A DNA stretch of 64,000 nt, taken from NCBI GenBank assembly GCA_001709035.1, contig LVKA01000019.1:186001-250000 (forward strand), read 5' to 3'. The position numbers were made by a program, and so were the translations under genes. The notes under the pieces were generated by a model. The model was not told where the DNA came from. It made no database searches and worked only from the letters and a program-made list of their open reading frames with translations. The stretch's first letter is position 1; each line of letters starts with the position of its first letter. The stretch comes from Candidatus Thiodiazotropha endoloripes (GTDB taxonomy: Bacteria > Pseudomonadota > Gammaproteobacteria > Chromatiales > Chromatiaceae). Shown piece by piece: positions 38,519 through 42,016 of the stretch.

Positions 38519-39121
38519 ATGAACCCTTATTACCACCGGGCCCACTTTCTCAAAAGTGCCGCCAAACTCTCCCAATCCCCCATCGACCAGGGCTACGAAA
38601 TCGCTTTTGCCGGCCGCTCCAATGCAGGTAAATCCAGCGCTCTGAACACGCTTTGCAACCAGAAATCCCTGGCACGTACCAGTAAAACACCGGGCAGGAC
38701 CCAGTTGTTGAATTATTTTGAGCTGGATGAGCAGCGCCGTCTGGTCGATCTACCCGGTTACGGCTATGCAAAGGTGGCTGAGTCCATCAAAAAGCAGTGG
38801 CAACAGAATCTGGCCAACTACATCGAGCACCGCCAATGCCTGAAAGGCCTGATCCTGCTGATGGATATCCGTCACCCCCTGACACCCTTCGACCTGCAGA
38901 TGCTGCAGTGGAATACCCATCACGGCCTGCCTACCCACGTCCTGCTGACCAAGGCGGACAAGCTGAAAACCGGTGCCGCAAAGAGTACCCAACTGAAAGT
39001 GGAACGCAGCCTGAACGATCATCCGGAAATAACCGTACAGCGCTTCTCCTCACTCAAAAAACAGGGCATAGACGAATGCCATCGGGTGCTGGATATCTGG
39101 CTTGAGCTGGATCAGGAATAG
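38519..39121 (+). CDS. engB: Ribosome biogenesis GTPase EngB/YihA
   Basis: A 200-residue TrmE-Era-EngA-like GTPase needed for 50S assembly. G1 is [10 protein letters not shown]3 is [10 protein letters not shown] and G4 is TKADKL. The start at 38519 follows TAGGAAG. It converges on polA, the same arrangement as in E. coli and Pseudomonas, with a candidate small RNA gene between them. Confidence 0.95.
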
Positions 39122-39127
39122 GCTGCG

Positions 39128-39171
39128 AAAAAAGTGGCCCCATCAGCCTAAGGGGAGAGACTGATGGGGCC
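39128..39171 (-). terminator. Rho-independent terminator of polA and the small RNA
   Basis: On the minus strand an 11-bp GGCCCCATCAG/CTGATGGGGCC stem with a 14-base loop is followed by AC and six T. It would end both polA read-through and the candidate small RNA. Confidence 0.85.
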
Positions 39172-39248
39172 GGATCTTCCCGGATGGGGTCACCGGGAAG
39201 GGGTGGGTCGCAAAGGGAGGAAAAGCGACCCGTGCCGTACGACTTACA
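39128..39248 (-). ncRNA. Candidate small regulatory RNA at the Spot 42/ErsA locus
   Basis: The 189-base polA-engB gap encodes, on the polA strand, three consecutive perfect hairpins: 39231/39205 (GGGTCGC stem, 13-base loop), 39199/39177 (TTCCCGG stem) and 39171/39136 (11-bp stem) followed by TTTTTT. A sigma-E-like promoter lies just upstream, giving a transcript of about 120 nt. The first hairpin loop, read on the transcript, contains UUUUCCUCCCUUU, complementary to Shine-Dalgarno sequences. Spot 42 of enterobacteria and ErsA of Pseudomonas are encoded in this same interval and orientation. Homology to either is not claimed, only position and structure. Confidence 0.65.
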
Positions 39249-39253
39249 GAACC

Positions 39254-39280
39254 TCTGACTGGGCTGCCCGGAAAAAGTTC
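39254..39280 (-). promoter_or_regulatory. Candidate sigma-E/AlgU-type promoter
   Basis: On the minus strand GAACTT (39280-39275), a 16-base spacer and TCAGA (39258-39254) match the extracytoplasmic-stress sigma consensus (GAACTT-N16-TCtgA). The predicted start is near 39248, just ahead of the three hairpins. Confidence 0.5.
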
Positions 39281-39310: not shown

Positions 39311-42016
39311 TCAATGGGCCTCGTCCCAATTGTCACCCACACCGACATCCACCAGGAGCGGCACATCGAGTAGCGCTGCCCCCTGCATACGCTCCGTCAG
39401 CACAGCCTTAGCCTCCTCCAGATACCCCGGATCGACCTCGAAGACCAACTCATCGTGTACCTGCATCAACATCTGTAGCGGCGGTTTCTCCCCTTCGATC
39501 CACTGATCGACCGAGAGCATGGCCCGTTTGATGATATCCGCCGCTGTCCCCTGCATGGGCGCATTGATGGCGGTACGTTCAGCTGCAGTGCGGCGTTGAT
39601 GATTGCGGGCGTTGATATCGGGCAGATAGAGGCGCCGACCGAACAGGGTCTCCACATAGCCCTGCTGATGAGCCTGCTCACGGATTCGATCCATAAACTC
39701 AGCCACGCCGGGGTAGCGATCGAAGTAGAGGTCGACATACTCCTGGGCCGCCTTCCGCTCGATACCCAGCTGACGTGCCAGACCGAAGGCCGACATGCCG
39801 TAGATCAAGCCGAAATTGATCGCTTTGGCAGAACGGCGCTGCTCTGAACTCACCTGCTCCAGGTCGGTGCCGAATACCTCTGCTGCGGTAGCGGTATGGA
39901 TGTCCTTACCCTCTGAGAAGGCCTGTAACAGCCCCTGATCCTGTGACAGATGGGCCATGATGCGCAGTTCAATCTGGGAATAGTCGGCCGCCACCATTTT
40001 CCAGCCGGCTTGAGGCACAAAGGCCTGTCGGATACGGCGCCCCTCCTCGCTGCGAATCGGGATATTCTGCAGATTCGGGTCGGTTGAGGAGAGTCTGCCG
40101 GTGGCGGCGACAGCCTGATGATAGGAGGTATGCACCCTTCCTGTGGTCGGATTGACCATCTCGGGCAGCTTGTCGGTGTAGGTGGATTTCAGTTTAGCCA
40201 ATCCCCGGTGTTGCAGAATCACCGACGGCAGTTCATGCCCCTGATGGGCCAATTCGACCAACACCGACTCGGCGGTGGAGGGGGCCCCTTTCGGGGTTTT
40301 GCTGATCACCGGCAGCTGCAGCTCATTGAAAAAAACCTCACCGATCTGTTTCGGCGAGCCCAGATTGAAGTTGTGTCCGGCCAGACTGTAGGCCTGCTGC
40401 TCCAGCTCATGAAGCTGCCGGGCAAAAGCGTCACTCTGCCCGCGCAGCATCGTGCTATCGACACTGACCCCGTTACGCTCAATGCGTGAGAGCACCGGAA
40501 CCAGAGCCACCTCCAGTTCATTGAAGAGCTTAGTTAGTGAAGACTCACTTTCGAGTTTCGGCCAGATTTCCTGGTGCAACCTTAAGGTTATATCCGCATC
40601 TTCGGCCGCGTATGGCGAGGCCTGATCCAGCTCGATCTGATTGAAGGTGAGCTGTTTTTTGCCCTTCCCGGCGATATCCTCAAAGTGGATCGTGGCATGG
40701 TTCAGGTAGTTTTTCGCCAACGAATCCATATCGTGGCGGGTTGCCGTGGAATTGAGCACATAGGACTCCAGCATGGTGTCAAAGGCGATACCCTGCATCT
40801 GGATGCCATAGCGGGCCAGCACGCTCATGTCGTATTTCAGATTCTGACCCACCTTTTTCTGCTCAGGGTCCTCCAGCAGTGGCTTGAACTGTTCCAACAC
40901 CCAGTCCAGAGGCAGCTGCTCAGGAGCACCCGGATAGTCATGGGCGAGGGGCACATAAGCCGCCTCACCAGGCGTGATGGCAAAGGAGATACCCACCAGC
41001 TCGGCCTGCATGTAGTCGAGGCTGGTGGTCTCCGTGTCAAAGGCGAACAGTTCACTCGAACTGAGACGCTTCAGCCATTTGAGCAGCTCCCCTTGACTGA
41101 GAATGGTCTGGTAATCGGCCTCGACAGCGGGCTCTGACTCCGCTTGCGGCGCCTCCTGGTCGGTACCCTCAAGGCTTGCCAGCAGCCGGCTGGACTCCAT
41201 GCGCTGAAAATGGCTTCTGAGCAGAGCTGTATTCTGCTCACCAATGCTGTGATCCGTGGGTGCCTGATCCAGCGCCACATCCAGTTTAATTGTCGCCAGC
41301 TTTCTCGATAATGGCAGCTGTTCTAGACTGGTACGAAGATTTTCGCCGATTTTGCCACCAATTTCCTCCGCATGACTGATCAGCTCATCCAGGGTTTCAT
41401 AGCTTTTAAGCCATTTTGCTGCGGTTTTCGGACCACATTTCGGCACCCCCGGGATATTGTCCGCACTGTCCCCTACCAGGGCCAGATAGTCGATAATCTG
41501 GTCCGGCCTGACACCGAATTTATCCACTACTCCCCGCTCATCCGTGGTGGTCTCGGACATGGTGTTGACCAGGCTTACTGAAGGATTGACCAACTGAGCC
41601 ATATCCTTGTCTCCCGTGGAGATCACCGTCTCCAAGCCGGCTTCCGTCGCTTGCACAGCCAGGGTGCCGATCACATCATCCGCCTCCACACCGGCCACCA
41701 TCACCAGCGGCAGCCCCATGGCCTGAACAATTTCATGTAGGGGTTCGATCTGACAACGCAGATCTTCCGGCATCGGCGGCCGGTTGGCCTTGTAGTCGGG
41801 ATAGAGCTCATTGCGGAAACTGCCTCCCGGTGCATCGAAGACCACCGCCATATAGTGCGGCTGATAATCACCGATCAGACGACGCAGCATGTTGAGCACC
41901 CCGACGATCGCCCCTGTCGGCTCCCCCTGTGAGTTACTGAGGTCAGGTAGGGCGTGGTAGGCCCGAAACAGGTAGGAGGATCCATCAACCAGAACAAATG
42001 GCGGCTTTTCTGACAT
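39311..42016 (-). CDS. polA: DNA polymerase I
   Basis: A 901-residue three-domain enzyme. The 5'-3' exonuclease covers residues 1-290 (LVDGSSYLFRAYHALPD, GDKDMAQLV), the 3'-5' exonuclease about 310-500 with its intact FDTET metal site, and the polymerase 520-901 with DYSQIELR (motif A), the O-helix RRSAKAINFGLIYGM and HDELVFEV (motif C). Length is normal. It fills gaps and removes Okazaki primers. It is transcribed towards engB and ends before the candidate small RNA terminator. Confidence 0.97.
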   Translation of the reverse strand: MSEKPPFVLVDGSSYLFRAYHALPDLSNSQGEPTGAIVGVLNMLRRLIGDYQPHYMAVVFDAPGGSFRNELYPDYKANRPPMPEDLRCQIEPLHEIVQAMGLPLVMVAGVEADDVIGTLAVQATEAGLETVISTGDKDMAQLVNPSVSLVNTMSETTTDERGVVDKFGVRPDQIIDYLALVGDSADNIPGVPKCGPKTAAKWLKSYETLDELISHAEEIGGKIGENLRTSLEQLPLSRKLATIKLDVALDQAPTDHSIGEQNTALLRSHFQRMESSRLLASLEGTDQEAPQAESEPAVEADYQTILSQGELLKWLKRLSSSELFAFDTETTSLDYMQAELVGISFAITPGEAAYVPLAHDYPGAPEQLPLDWVLEQFKPLLEDPEQKKVGQNLKYDMSVLARYGIQMQGIAFDTMLESYVLNSTATRHDMDSLAKNYLNHATIHFEDIAGKGKKQLTFNQIELDQASPYAAEDADITLRLHQEIWPKLESESSLTKLFNELEVALVPVLSRIERNGVSVDSTMLRGQSDAFARQLHELEQQAYSLAGHNFNLGSPKQIGEVFFNELQLPVISKTPKGAPSTAESVLVELAHQGHELPSVILQHRGLAKLKSTYTDKLPEMVNPTTGRVHTSYHQAVAATGRLSSTDPNLQNIPIRSEEGRRIRQAFVPQAGWKMVAADYSQIELRIMAHLSQDQGLLQAFSEGKDIHTATAAEVFGTDLEQVSSEQRRSAKAINFGLIYGMSAFGLARQLGIERKAAQEYVDLYFDRYPGVAEFMDRIREQAHQQGYVETLFGRRLYLPDINARNHQRRTAAERTAINAPMQGTAADIIKRAMLSVDQWIEGEKPPLQMLMQVHDELVFEVDPGYLEEAKAVLTERMQGAALLDVPLLVDVGVGDNWDEAH

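Follow-up and report, generated by a model that had tools for sequence, protein, structure and literature searches.

The polA-engB interval and its transcription unit

Candidatus Thiodiazotropha species are sulfur-oxidising clam symbionts. In the 64-kb stretch of the Candidatus Thiodiazotropha endoloripes genome analysed here (the window), polA and engB converge on an interval of 189 nt, in which a sigma-E-type promoter on the polA strand is followed by three hairpins and a run of six T residues (Table 1). The first-pass annotation of this DNA had read off a GAACTT-N16-TCAGA promoter on the polA strand, three hairpins with a final six-T tract in a transcript of about 120 nt, and a first loop holding CCUCCC. 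All of these elements are present: the promoter lies at 39280-39254 on the minus strand, the RNA body measures about 121 nt, and CCUCCC is found in the loop of stem-loop 1, while loops 2 and 3 each contain CCCC. The orthologues of polA adjoin the small RNA (sRNA) in relatives as well, as seen by tblastn.

Table 1. Features of the polA-engB locus (window coordinates)
Feature	Position	Strand	Description and basis
engB/yihA	38519-39121	+	200-aa ORF; TIGR03598, 248.8 bits; convergent, downstream of the sRNA
Terminator T6 tract	39128-39133	-	sequence; terminator search
sRNA, about 121 nt	39128-39248	-	5' end most likely, from promoter and onset of conservation; 3' end, T tract
Stem-loop 3 (terminator hairpin)	39136-39171	-	14 pairs, loop region CUCUCCCCUUA; double changes in 14/14 pairs
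Stem-loop 2	39176-39200	-	8 outer bp, loop with ACCCCA; fold; double changes in 8/8 pairs
Stem-loop 1	39205-39231	-	7 bp, loop UUUUCCUCCCUUU (39212-39224); fold; covariation
Small 5' hairpin	39234-39243	-	GUCG-UAC-GGC, inside the conserved 5' end GUAAGUCGUACG
-10 element	39254-39258	-	TCAGA; 16-nt spacer from -35
-35 element	39275-39280	-	GAACTT, sigma-E-type promoter; sequence; conserved in genus
polA	39311-42016	-	901-aa ORF; directly upstream of the sRNA, same strand

The sigma-E/AlgU consensus is GAACTT-N16-TCTGA. Across the 64 kb of the window there is a single match to GAACTT-N15-18-TCWGA, and 19 of 100 shuffled versions have at least one; the promoter alone could thus be due to chance, and the case rests on the comparison between genomes. 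No sigma-70 promoter was found in the region. The RNA itself folds with -59.3 kcal/mol (z = -6.9), a value that none of 200 shuffled sequences reaches. Its reverse complement folds too (-57.3 kcal/mol, z = -3.5) and presents loops that read AAAGGGAGGAAAA and AAGGGGAGAG, which might suggest an RNA from the engB strand whose GGA-containing loops act as a sponge for CsrA/RsmA. However, no terminator-like site was found on the engB strand, the sigma-E pattern is confined to the polA strand, and promoter and terminator, both of them conserved, are oriented as polA is, so that we see next to no likelihood in such a sponge. A short open reading frame inside the polA-strand RNA was likewise considered and judged unlikely, as there are indels between relatives (assessed by eye only), and a search of the plasmid collection gave no match.

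Conservation in the genus and covariation of the stems

With the 189-nt interval as query, 24 of 93 genomes (own included) gave a match, and the RNA was found in all 21 other genomes of the genus that were searched. GAACTT and a -10 element, either TCAGA or TCTAT, stand upstream of it in each of the 22 genus loci, but GAACTT occurs in none of the 22 in any of three control windows, nor on the antisense strand. Absence of the promoter or of the hairpins from close relatives had been named at the outset as the finding that would speak against an sRNA gene; both are in place in 22 of 22 loci, and it is this conservation (21/21 genomes, 22/22 promoters) that raises the observation above chance. 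In the alignment of the genus the conserved block runs from the expected start of the RNA to the T tract, whereas the letters between the -35 and -10 elements and those past the terminator vary and the flanking DNA diverges. The block could be aligned in 24 loci and corresponds to 39127-39247 in the match of a covariance model built from 24 sequences (R1). Judged from this layout, the 5' end given in Table 1 and the dependence of the window RNA on sigma-E are most likely correct. The RNA is nearly unchanged even at four genus loci (L002, L004, L005 and L006) whose flanks gave no engB. The -35 hexamer overlaps the TGA stop codon of polA in 12/22 genus loci (L007-L018; 5 extracted from the stop onward).

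The first-pass annotation had called for a covariance alignment of polA-engB intergenic regions, in which compensatory changes would lend weight to the stems. Such an alignment at the level of the family (A3, 49 loci) shows pairs changed on both sides at 33 of 33 positions, a level of covariation that 0 of 500 shuffles attain and of which slid controls fall far short; being fitted to the model, the alignment leans towards the structure. In the class-wide alignment of 107 matches (A4), 32 of the 33 pairs are doubly changed and 89.9% of cells are paired. Stem-loop 1 has double changes in all seven of its pairs, with 98.8% of cells paired, and even the small 5' hairpin, which is weak in the fold alone, is doubly changed in 4/4 pairs in both A3 and A4.

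Distribution and kinship with known sRNAs

R1 matches 56 of 194 genomes of the family, in 23 of its 61 genera. Other genera contribute 44 matches, of which 36 have polA and/or engB within the 1.5-kb flanks, while neither was found for eight; many of the 44 are weak by score yet stand at the right gene, and GAACT is present upstream in 35 of 42. A second model, built from the window's family (R2), matches 163 of 369 genomes of the class and 126 of 271 genera. From the R2 list we fetched 88 class loci, working down to a score of 42.4 bits with 11 of the genomes on it skipped, and counted their flanks with one row per locus and eight comparison loci removed. In 75 of these 88 loci, which belong to many lineages of the class, an sRNA of this kind adjoins polA and/or engB, in most cases behind a sigma-E-type promoter, and in 72 it has the orientation seen in the window; the earlier suggestion of an ancient sRNA locus gains support from this distribution. 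In 37 loci polA lies upstream and engB downstream, in 21 only engB and in 14 only polA was found, in three the RNA is inverted between both genes, and in 13 neither gene was found in the flanks. GAACT stands upstream in 70 of the 88 loci, as compared to 10, 3 and 3 in the control windows and 4 on the antisense strand, and is absent in 18; the full GAACTT is present in 57, with 0-10 in controls and antisense. Where GAACT is followed by TC at 15-17 nt, the spacer measures 16 nt in 119 of 125 loci (the script tried 16 first). The three inverted loci (L095, L103 and L295) run in the engB direction and still carry GAACT upstream.

The window RNA shares the strand of polA, follows it on the 3' side and faces engB, and is preceded by GAACT(T)-N16-TC, the arrangement and promoter by which the polA-locus family is defined. 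We further built a third model (R3) on 84 class loci with 94 matches between them, leaving aside the window's family and all loci that reach the Rfam cut-offs of ErsA, sX13 or anti-hemB; since its training loci were found with R2, the two models are not wholly independent. R3 aligns with the window from end to end at 96.1 bits (E 2.8e-23), and its best match in 100 kb of unrelated E. coli DNA scores 22.1 bits. A phylum-wide search with R2 matched 38 of 299 genomes. Twenty belong to the class; the 18 others lie outside it and score no more than 34.1 bits, and among the 13 of these that were fetched none had polA or engB in its flanks. On 13 selected best matches from outside the class R3 gives 21.5-40.7 bits, the highest value belonging to a locus that is not near polA or engB (L228, 1452-1600) and may be either a distant relative or chance.

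Species genomes were also scanned with a DNA pattern of loop 1 and hairpin 2. This named-taxa scan, whose set overlaps the genomes of the other searches, gave 106 stretches, 80 of which were returned as loci. Fifty-one of the 80 score at least 43 bits with R3, and 48 of the 51 adjoin polA or engB and 48 have GAACT. Their titles name Gammaproteobacteria, Chromatiales/Chromatiaceae, symbionts, Thiodiazotropha, Thiotrichaceae, Natronospirales, Rariloculus, Methylotetracoccus, Methylolobus and Thiococcus, as well as unspecified Proteobacteria and one metagenome-assembled genome titled Rhodospirillaceae. The remaining 29 loci (Streptomyces, Cyanobium, archaea and others) do not exceed 24.2 bits, and none is titled Gammaproteobacteria. 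The Rhodospirillaceae locus (L191, 973-1094) scores 64.6 bits and adjoins both polA and engB; it may sit on a mis-binned contig.

At seven loci the sRNA occurs in tandem arrays of two to four copies (L252, 1501-2256; L263, 1501-2437; L254, L268, L280, L300 and L240), and at L193 (6612-8000) five matches of unequal strength, 19.7-49.9 bits, stand in a row.

Could the element nonetheless lack its own promoter and be only the terminator or 3' untranslated region of polA, perhaps also of engB, possibly set free during RNA decay? In favour of this are its place immediately past polA in the gap between two convergent genes, the strong terminator at its end, and the 12 genus loci mentioned above in which the -35 hexamer and the stop codon of polA overlap. 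However, a terminator needs one hairpin, whereas three hairpins together with their loop letters are conserved here; GAACTT-N16-TC is kept in 22/22 genus loci and in none of the control windows; the RNA is retained, promoter included, at loci where polA or engB was not found nearby; and within the seven arrays a GAAC(T/C) box precedes 14 of the 18 copies. We consider an explanation by read-through from the neighbouring genes very unlikely. The element is very probably a free-standing gene for a trans-acting sRNA of about 121 nt, with its own sigma-E promoter and its own terminator, that forms one family with sX13, anti-hemB and, by a weaker link, ErsA.

At the curated cut-offs of Rfam the window has no match. 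Up to E 10 its best match is anti-hemB (RF02837) with 21.8 bits, short of the cut-off of 49.5, and there is none to ErsA (RF01719) or sX13 (RF02232), both with cut-offs of 50 bits; for Spot 42 (RF00021) a match is missing both at the gathering cut-off and at E values up to 10. Weak matches to RybB (13.5 bits) and CcsR1 (13.0 bits) at E<=10 were put down to chance or to a similar design. Against Rfam, 68 of the 88 class loci were scanned at gathering and 20 at E 0.1, and only four (L079, L250, L269 and L288) reach the cut-off for any of ErsA, sX13 or anti-hemB, in each case that of anti-hemB. At E 0.1 all 20 loci show an anti-hemB match at the sRNA (one of them over the cut-off), five an sX13 and three an ErsA match.

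The link to the three known families comes from the opposite direction. R2 was built without ErsA, sX13 or anti-hemB and found all three, ErsA and sX13 at the same locus as in the window. It matched seven genomes of family f160, in which the four fetched loci are ErsA (126.8-135.6 bits with RF01719) between polA and engB; it recovered three loci of family f13 that are sX13 (98.6-124.5 bits with RF02232) downstream of polA; and it recovered anti-hemB at L240 and L233. Pseudomonas was recognised among the genomes through RF01719; a scan of 17 large genomes for PrrF had been negative in all 17, with no control giving a signal. Six loci exceed the anti-hemB cut-off (L079, L233, L240, L250, L269 and L288), and four of them adjoin polA or engB. 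With R3 the anti-hemB loci score 38.4-90.9 bits, the three sX13 loci 43.0-46.4, ErsA 33.8-37.4 and Spot 42 21.8. The first-pass annotation had expected a conserved position with a new sequence: the position is indeed shared, whereas the sequence is not simply new, given that it forms one family with sX13 and anti-hemB and, less strongly, with ErsA.

These relatives differ in what they share with the window RNA. sX13 too lies downstream of polA, has three stems with C-rich apical loops and matches R3 from end to end, but its three loci carry GAACC upstream instead of GAACTT. In PMC3771888 it is described as an RNA of 115 nt that is always found downstream of polA and is exclusive to Xanthomonadaceae. 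Anti-hemB of Burkholderia has nearly the same hairpin 1, with UCUCCUCCCU, and appears as the expressed transcript ncS04 in PMC5688073. Two anti-hemB copies stand side by side at L240/L315 (9175-9272 and just downstream), beside a frame that we take by resemblance to be integrase-like, and neither polA nor engB was found within 19 kb of them, which suggests that this branch has moved. ErsA (Pseudomon-1) shares with the window RNA the polA-engB position, the strand, an AlgU/sigma-E-type promoter with GAACTT, and the C-rich loops of hairpins 2 and 3. It differs in that it lacks the CCUCCC stem-loop 1 and has a U/G-rich stretch in its place, so that only hairpins 2 and 3 are common to both; an unstructured part at nt 26-56 of ErsA is described in PMC5819304. 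Since the R3 score of ErsA falls inside the range of the out-of-class matches (21.5-40.7 bits), position and promoter carry more weight than the score in placing it in the family. A further similar RNA, alpha-r7 of the alphaproteobacteria, lies near polA and has three stem-loops with apical C-rich motifs, as described in PMC3771888, and would by that description resemble the window RNA in locus, stem number and loops.

One may ask whether the three-hairpin C-rich design arose repeatedly, so that ErsA, sX13, anti-hemB and the window RNA only resemble one another and came to occupy a common locus by chance or through separate replacement. C-rich loops are known from unrelated sRNAs of other phyla (PMC3771888), and ErsA has no loop-1 motif and a modest score. 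Yet gene position, strand and promoter spacing are the same in most loci, the sequences align from end to end to one model, and the matches form a graded series over 126 genera. Repeated origin therefore appears improbable to us, and a single family probably stood at the polA-engB locus already in the common ancestor of much of the Gammaproteobacteria.

Such a family would unite RF01719, RF02232 and RF02837, which have been separate until now and are shown without a clan in Rfam. Within the open-licence PMC literature, no paper was found in which sX13 and ErsA appear together, none with more than one of RF01719, RF02232 and RF02837, and none in which Thiodiazotropha and small RNA appear together.

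The locus had been annotated at first as that of Spot 42 and ErsA. For Spot 42 this holds as far as interval and strand are concerned, which the E. coli RNA shares with that of the window; Spot 42 is also the best R2 match in 6 kb of its region (16.6 bits, next 5.4). With R3, however, its 21.8 bits do not exceed the best chance match of 22.1 bits in the 100 kb of E. coli DNA, the link is so far positional only, and the score, lying within noise, does not secure Spot 42 as a member of the family. Spot 42 is controlled by CRP, not by sigma-E. It is possible but doubtful that a single sigma-E-dependent sRNA gene is ancestral to the Gammaproteobacteria, with ErsA, sX13, anti-hemB and the window RNA as its living forms and Spot 42 as the most changed one, which would have lost the stress promoter and the C-rich loops and been re-wired to carbon control. 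That ErsA and Spot 42 share their position was already known (PMC3349714, PMC8395346), and ErsA is listed beside engB as Spot42-like in PMC3349714.

Regulation and candidate targets

The genome that carries the window RNA encodes RpoE (317 bits), and GAACTT-N16-TCAAT stands 79 nt upstream of the aligned start of its reading frame, which by its sequence is the layout of an autoregulated sigma-E promoter. It also encodes Hfq (102 bits), the chaperone used by ErsA. The strict pattern GAACTT-N15-17-TCTAW was tried as a regulon marker and given up, as it is not enriched in this genome (4 matches versus 25 in the backward control).

Envelope stress would free RpoE, and the sRNA would be transcribed from the promoter just 3' of polA. 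Its stems would present three C-rich loops, UUUUCCUCCCUUU, ACCCCA and CUCUCCCCUUA, and these would pair with G-rich Shine-Dalgarno regions, so that translation of chosen messages stops. Pairing of the loops with ribosome binding sites and the resulting repression are probable by analogy with sX13 and ErsA. The C-rich loops of sX13 are reported to act independently of Hfq in repressing mRNAs that carry G-rich motifs close to their start (PMC3771888), and ErsA, 132 nt in length and dependent on AlgU/sigma-22, represses algC and oprD (PMC5819304 and PMC8395346). The family predicts sigma-E control for many genes that are as yet unannotated, and it makes the mechanism learned in sX13 or ErsA testable in animal symbionts.

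We searched the 22 genus genomes for exact 12-nt complements of the loops. Those of loop 1 number eight outside the sRNA gene, are mostly antisense to coding sequence or far from a start, and reveal no recurrent target among these genomes. hfq, a target of sX13, has no G4 run in the stretch examined. The exact complements of loop 3 outside the sRNA gene number eight too, and four of them are not at a convincing start. Three others lie at the ribosome binding site of a presumably glmU-like gene, so named by sequence resemblance, in 3 of the 22 genomes (G000, G011 and G013); in G000 (L362, 1497; G000:C18:264637) the 12 nt are an exact complement to the terminator loop. The glmU ribosome binding site is near-identical in G002 and G008 and alike in five close genomes; among nine other genus genomes whose neighbouring stretches were taken, glmU was found in two, both of them among these five, and not found in seven. 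Compared with 338 gene starts, of which 39 are from the window and the rest from relatives (two being glmU of close relatives), the glmU start came out lowest for loops 1 and 3, whereas 108 starts are as low for loop 2 and 279 for the 5' end; this start had come up in a search for such matches and owes its selection to the match. Since ErsA acts on algC, an envelope sugar gene would be a fitting target, and we regard glmU, which serves envelope UDP-GlcNAc synthesis, as the best of the predicted targets, though as a lead only. The eighth complement of loop 3 lies at the ribosome binding site of a gene in G006 that, again by sequence resemblance, we take to be fructose-bisphosphate aldolase-like.
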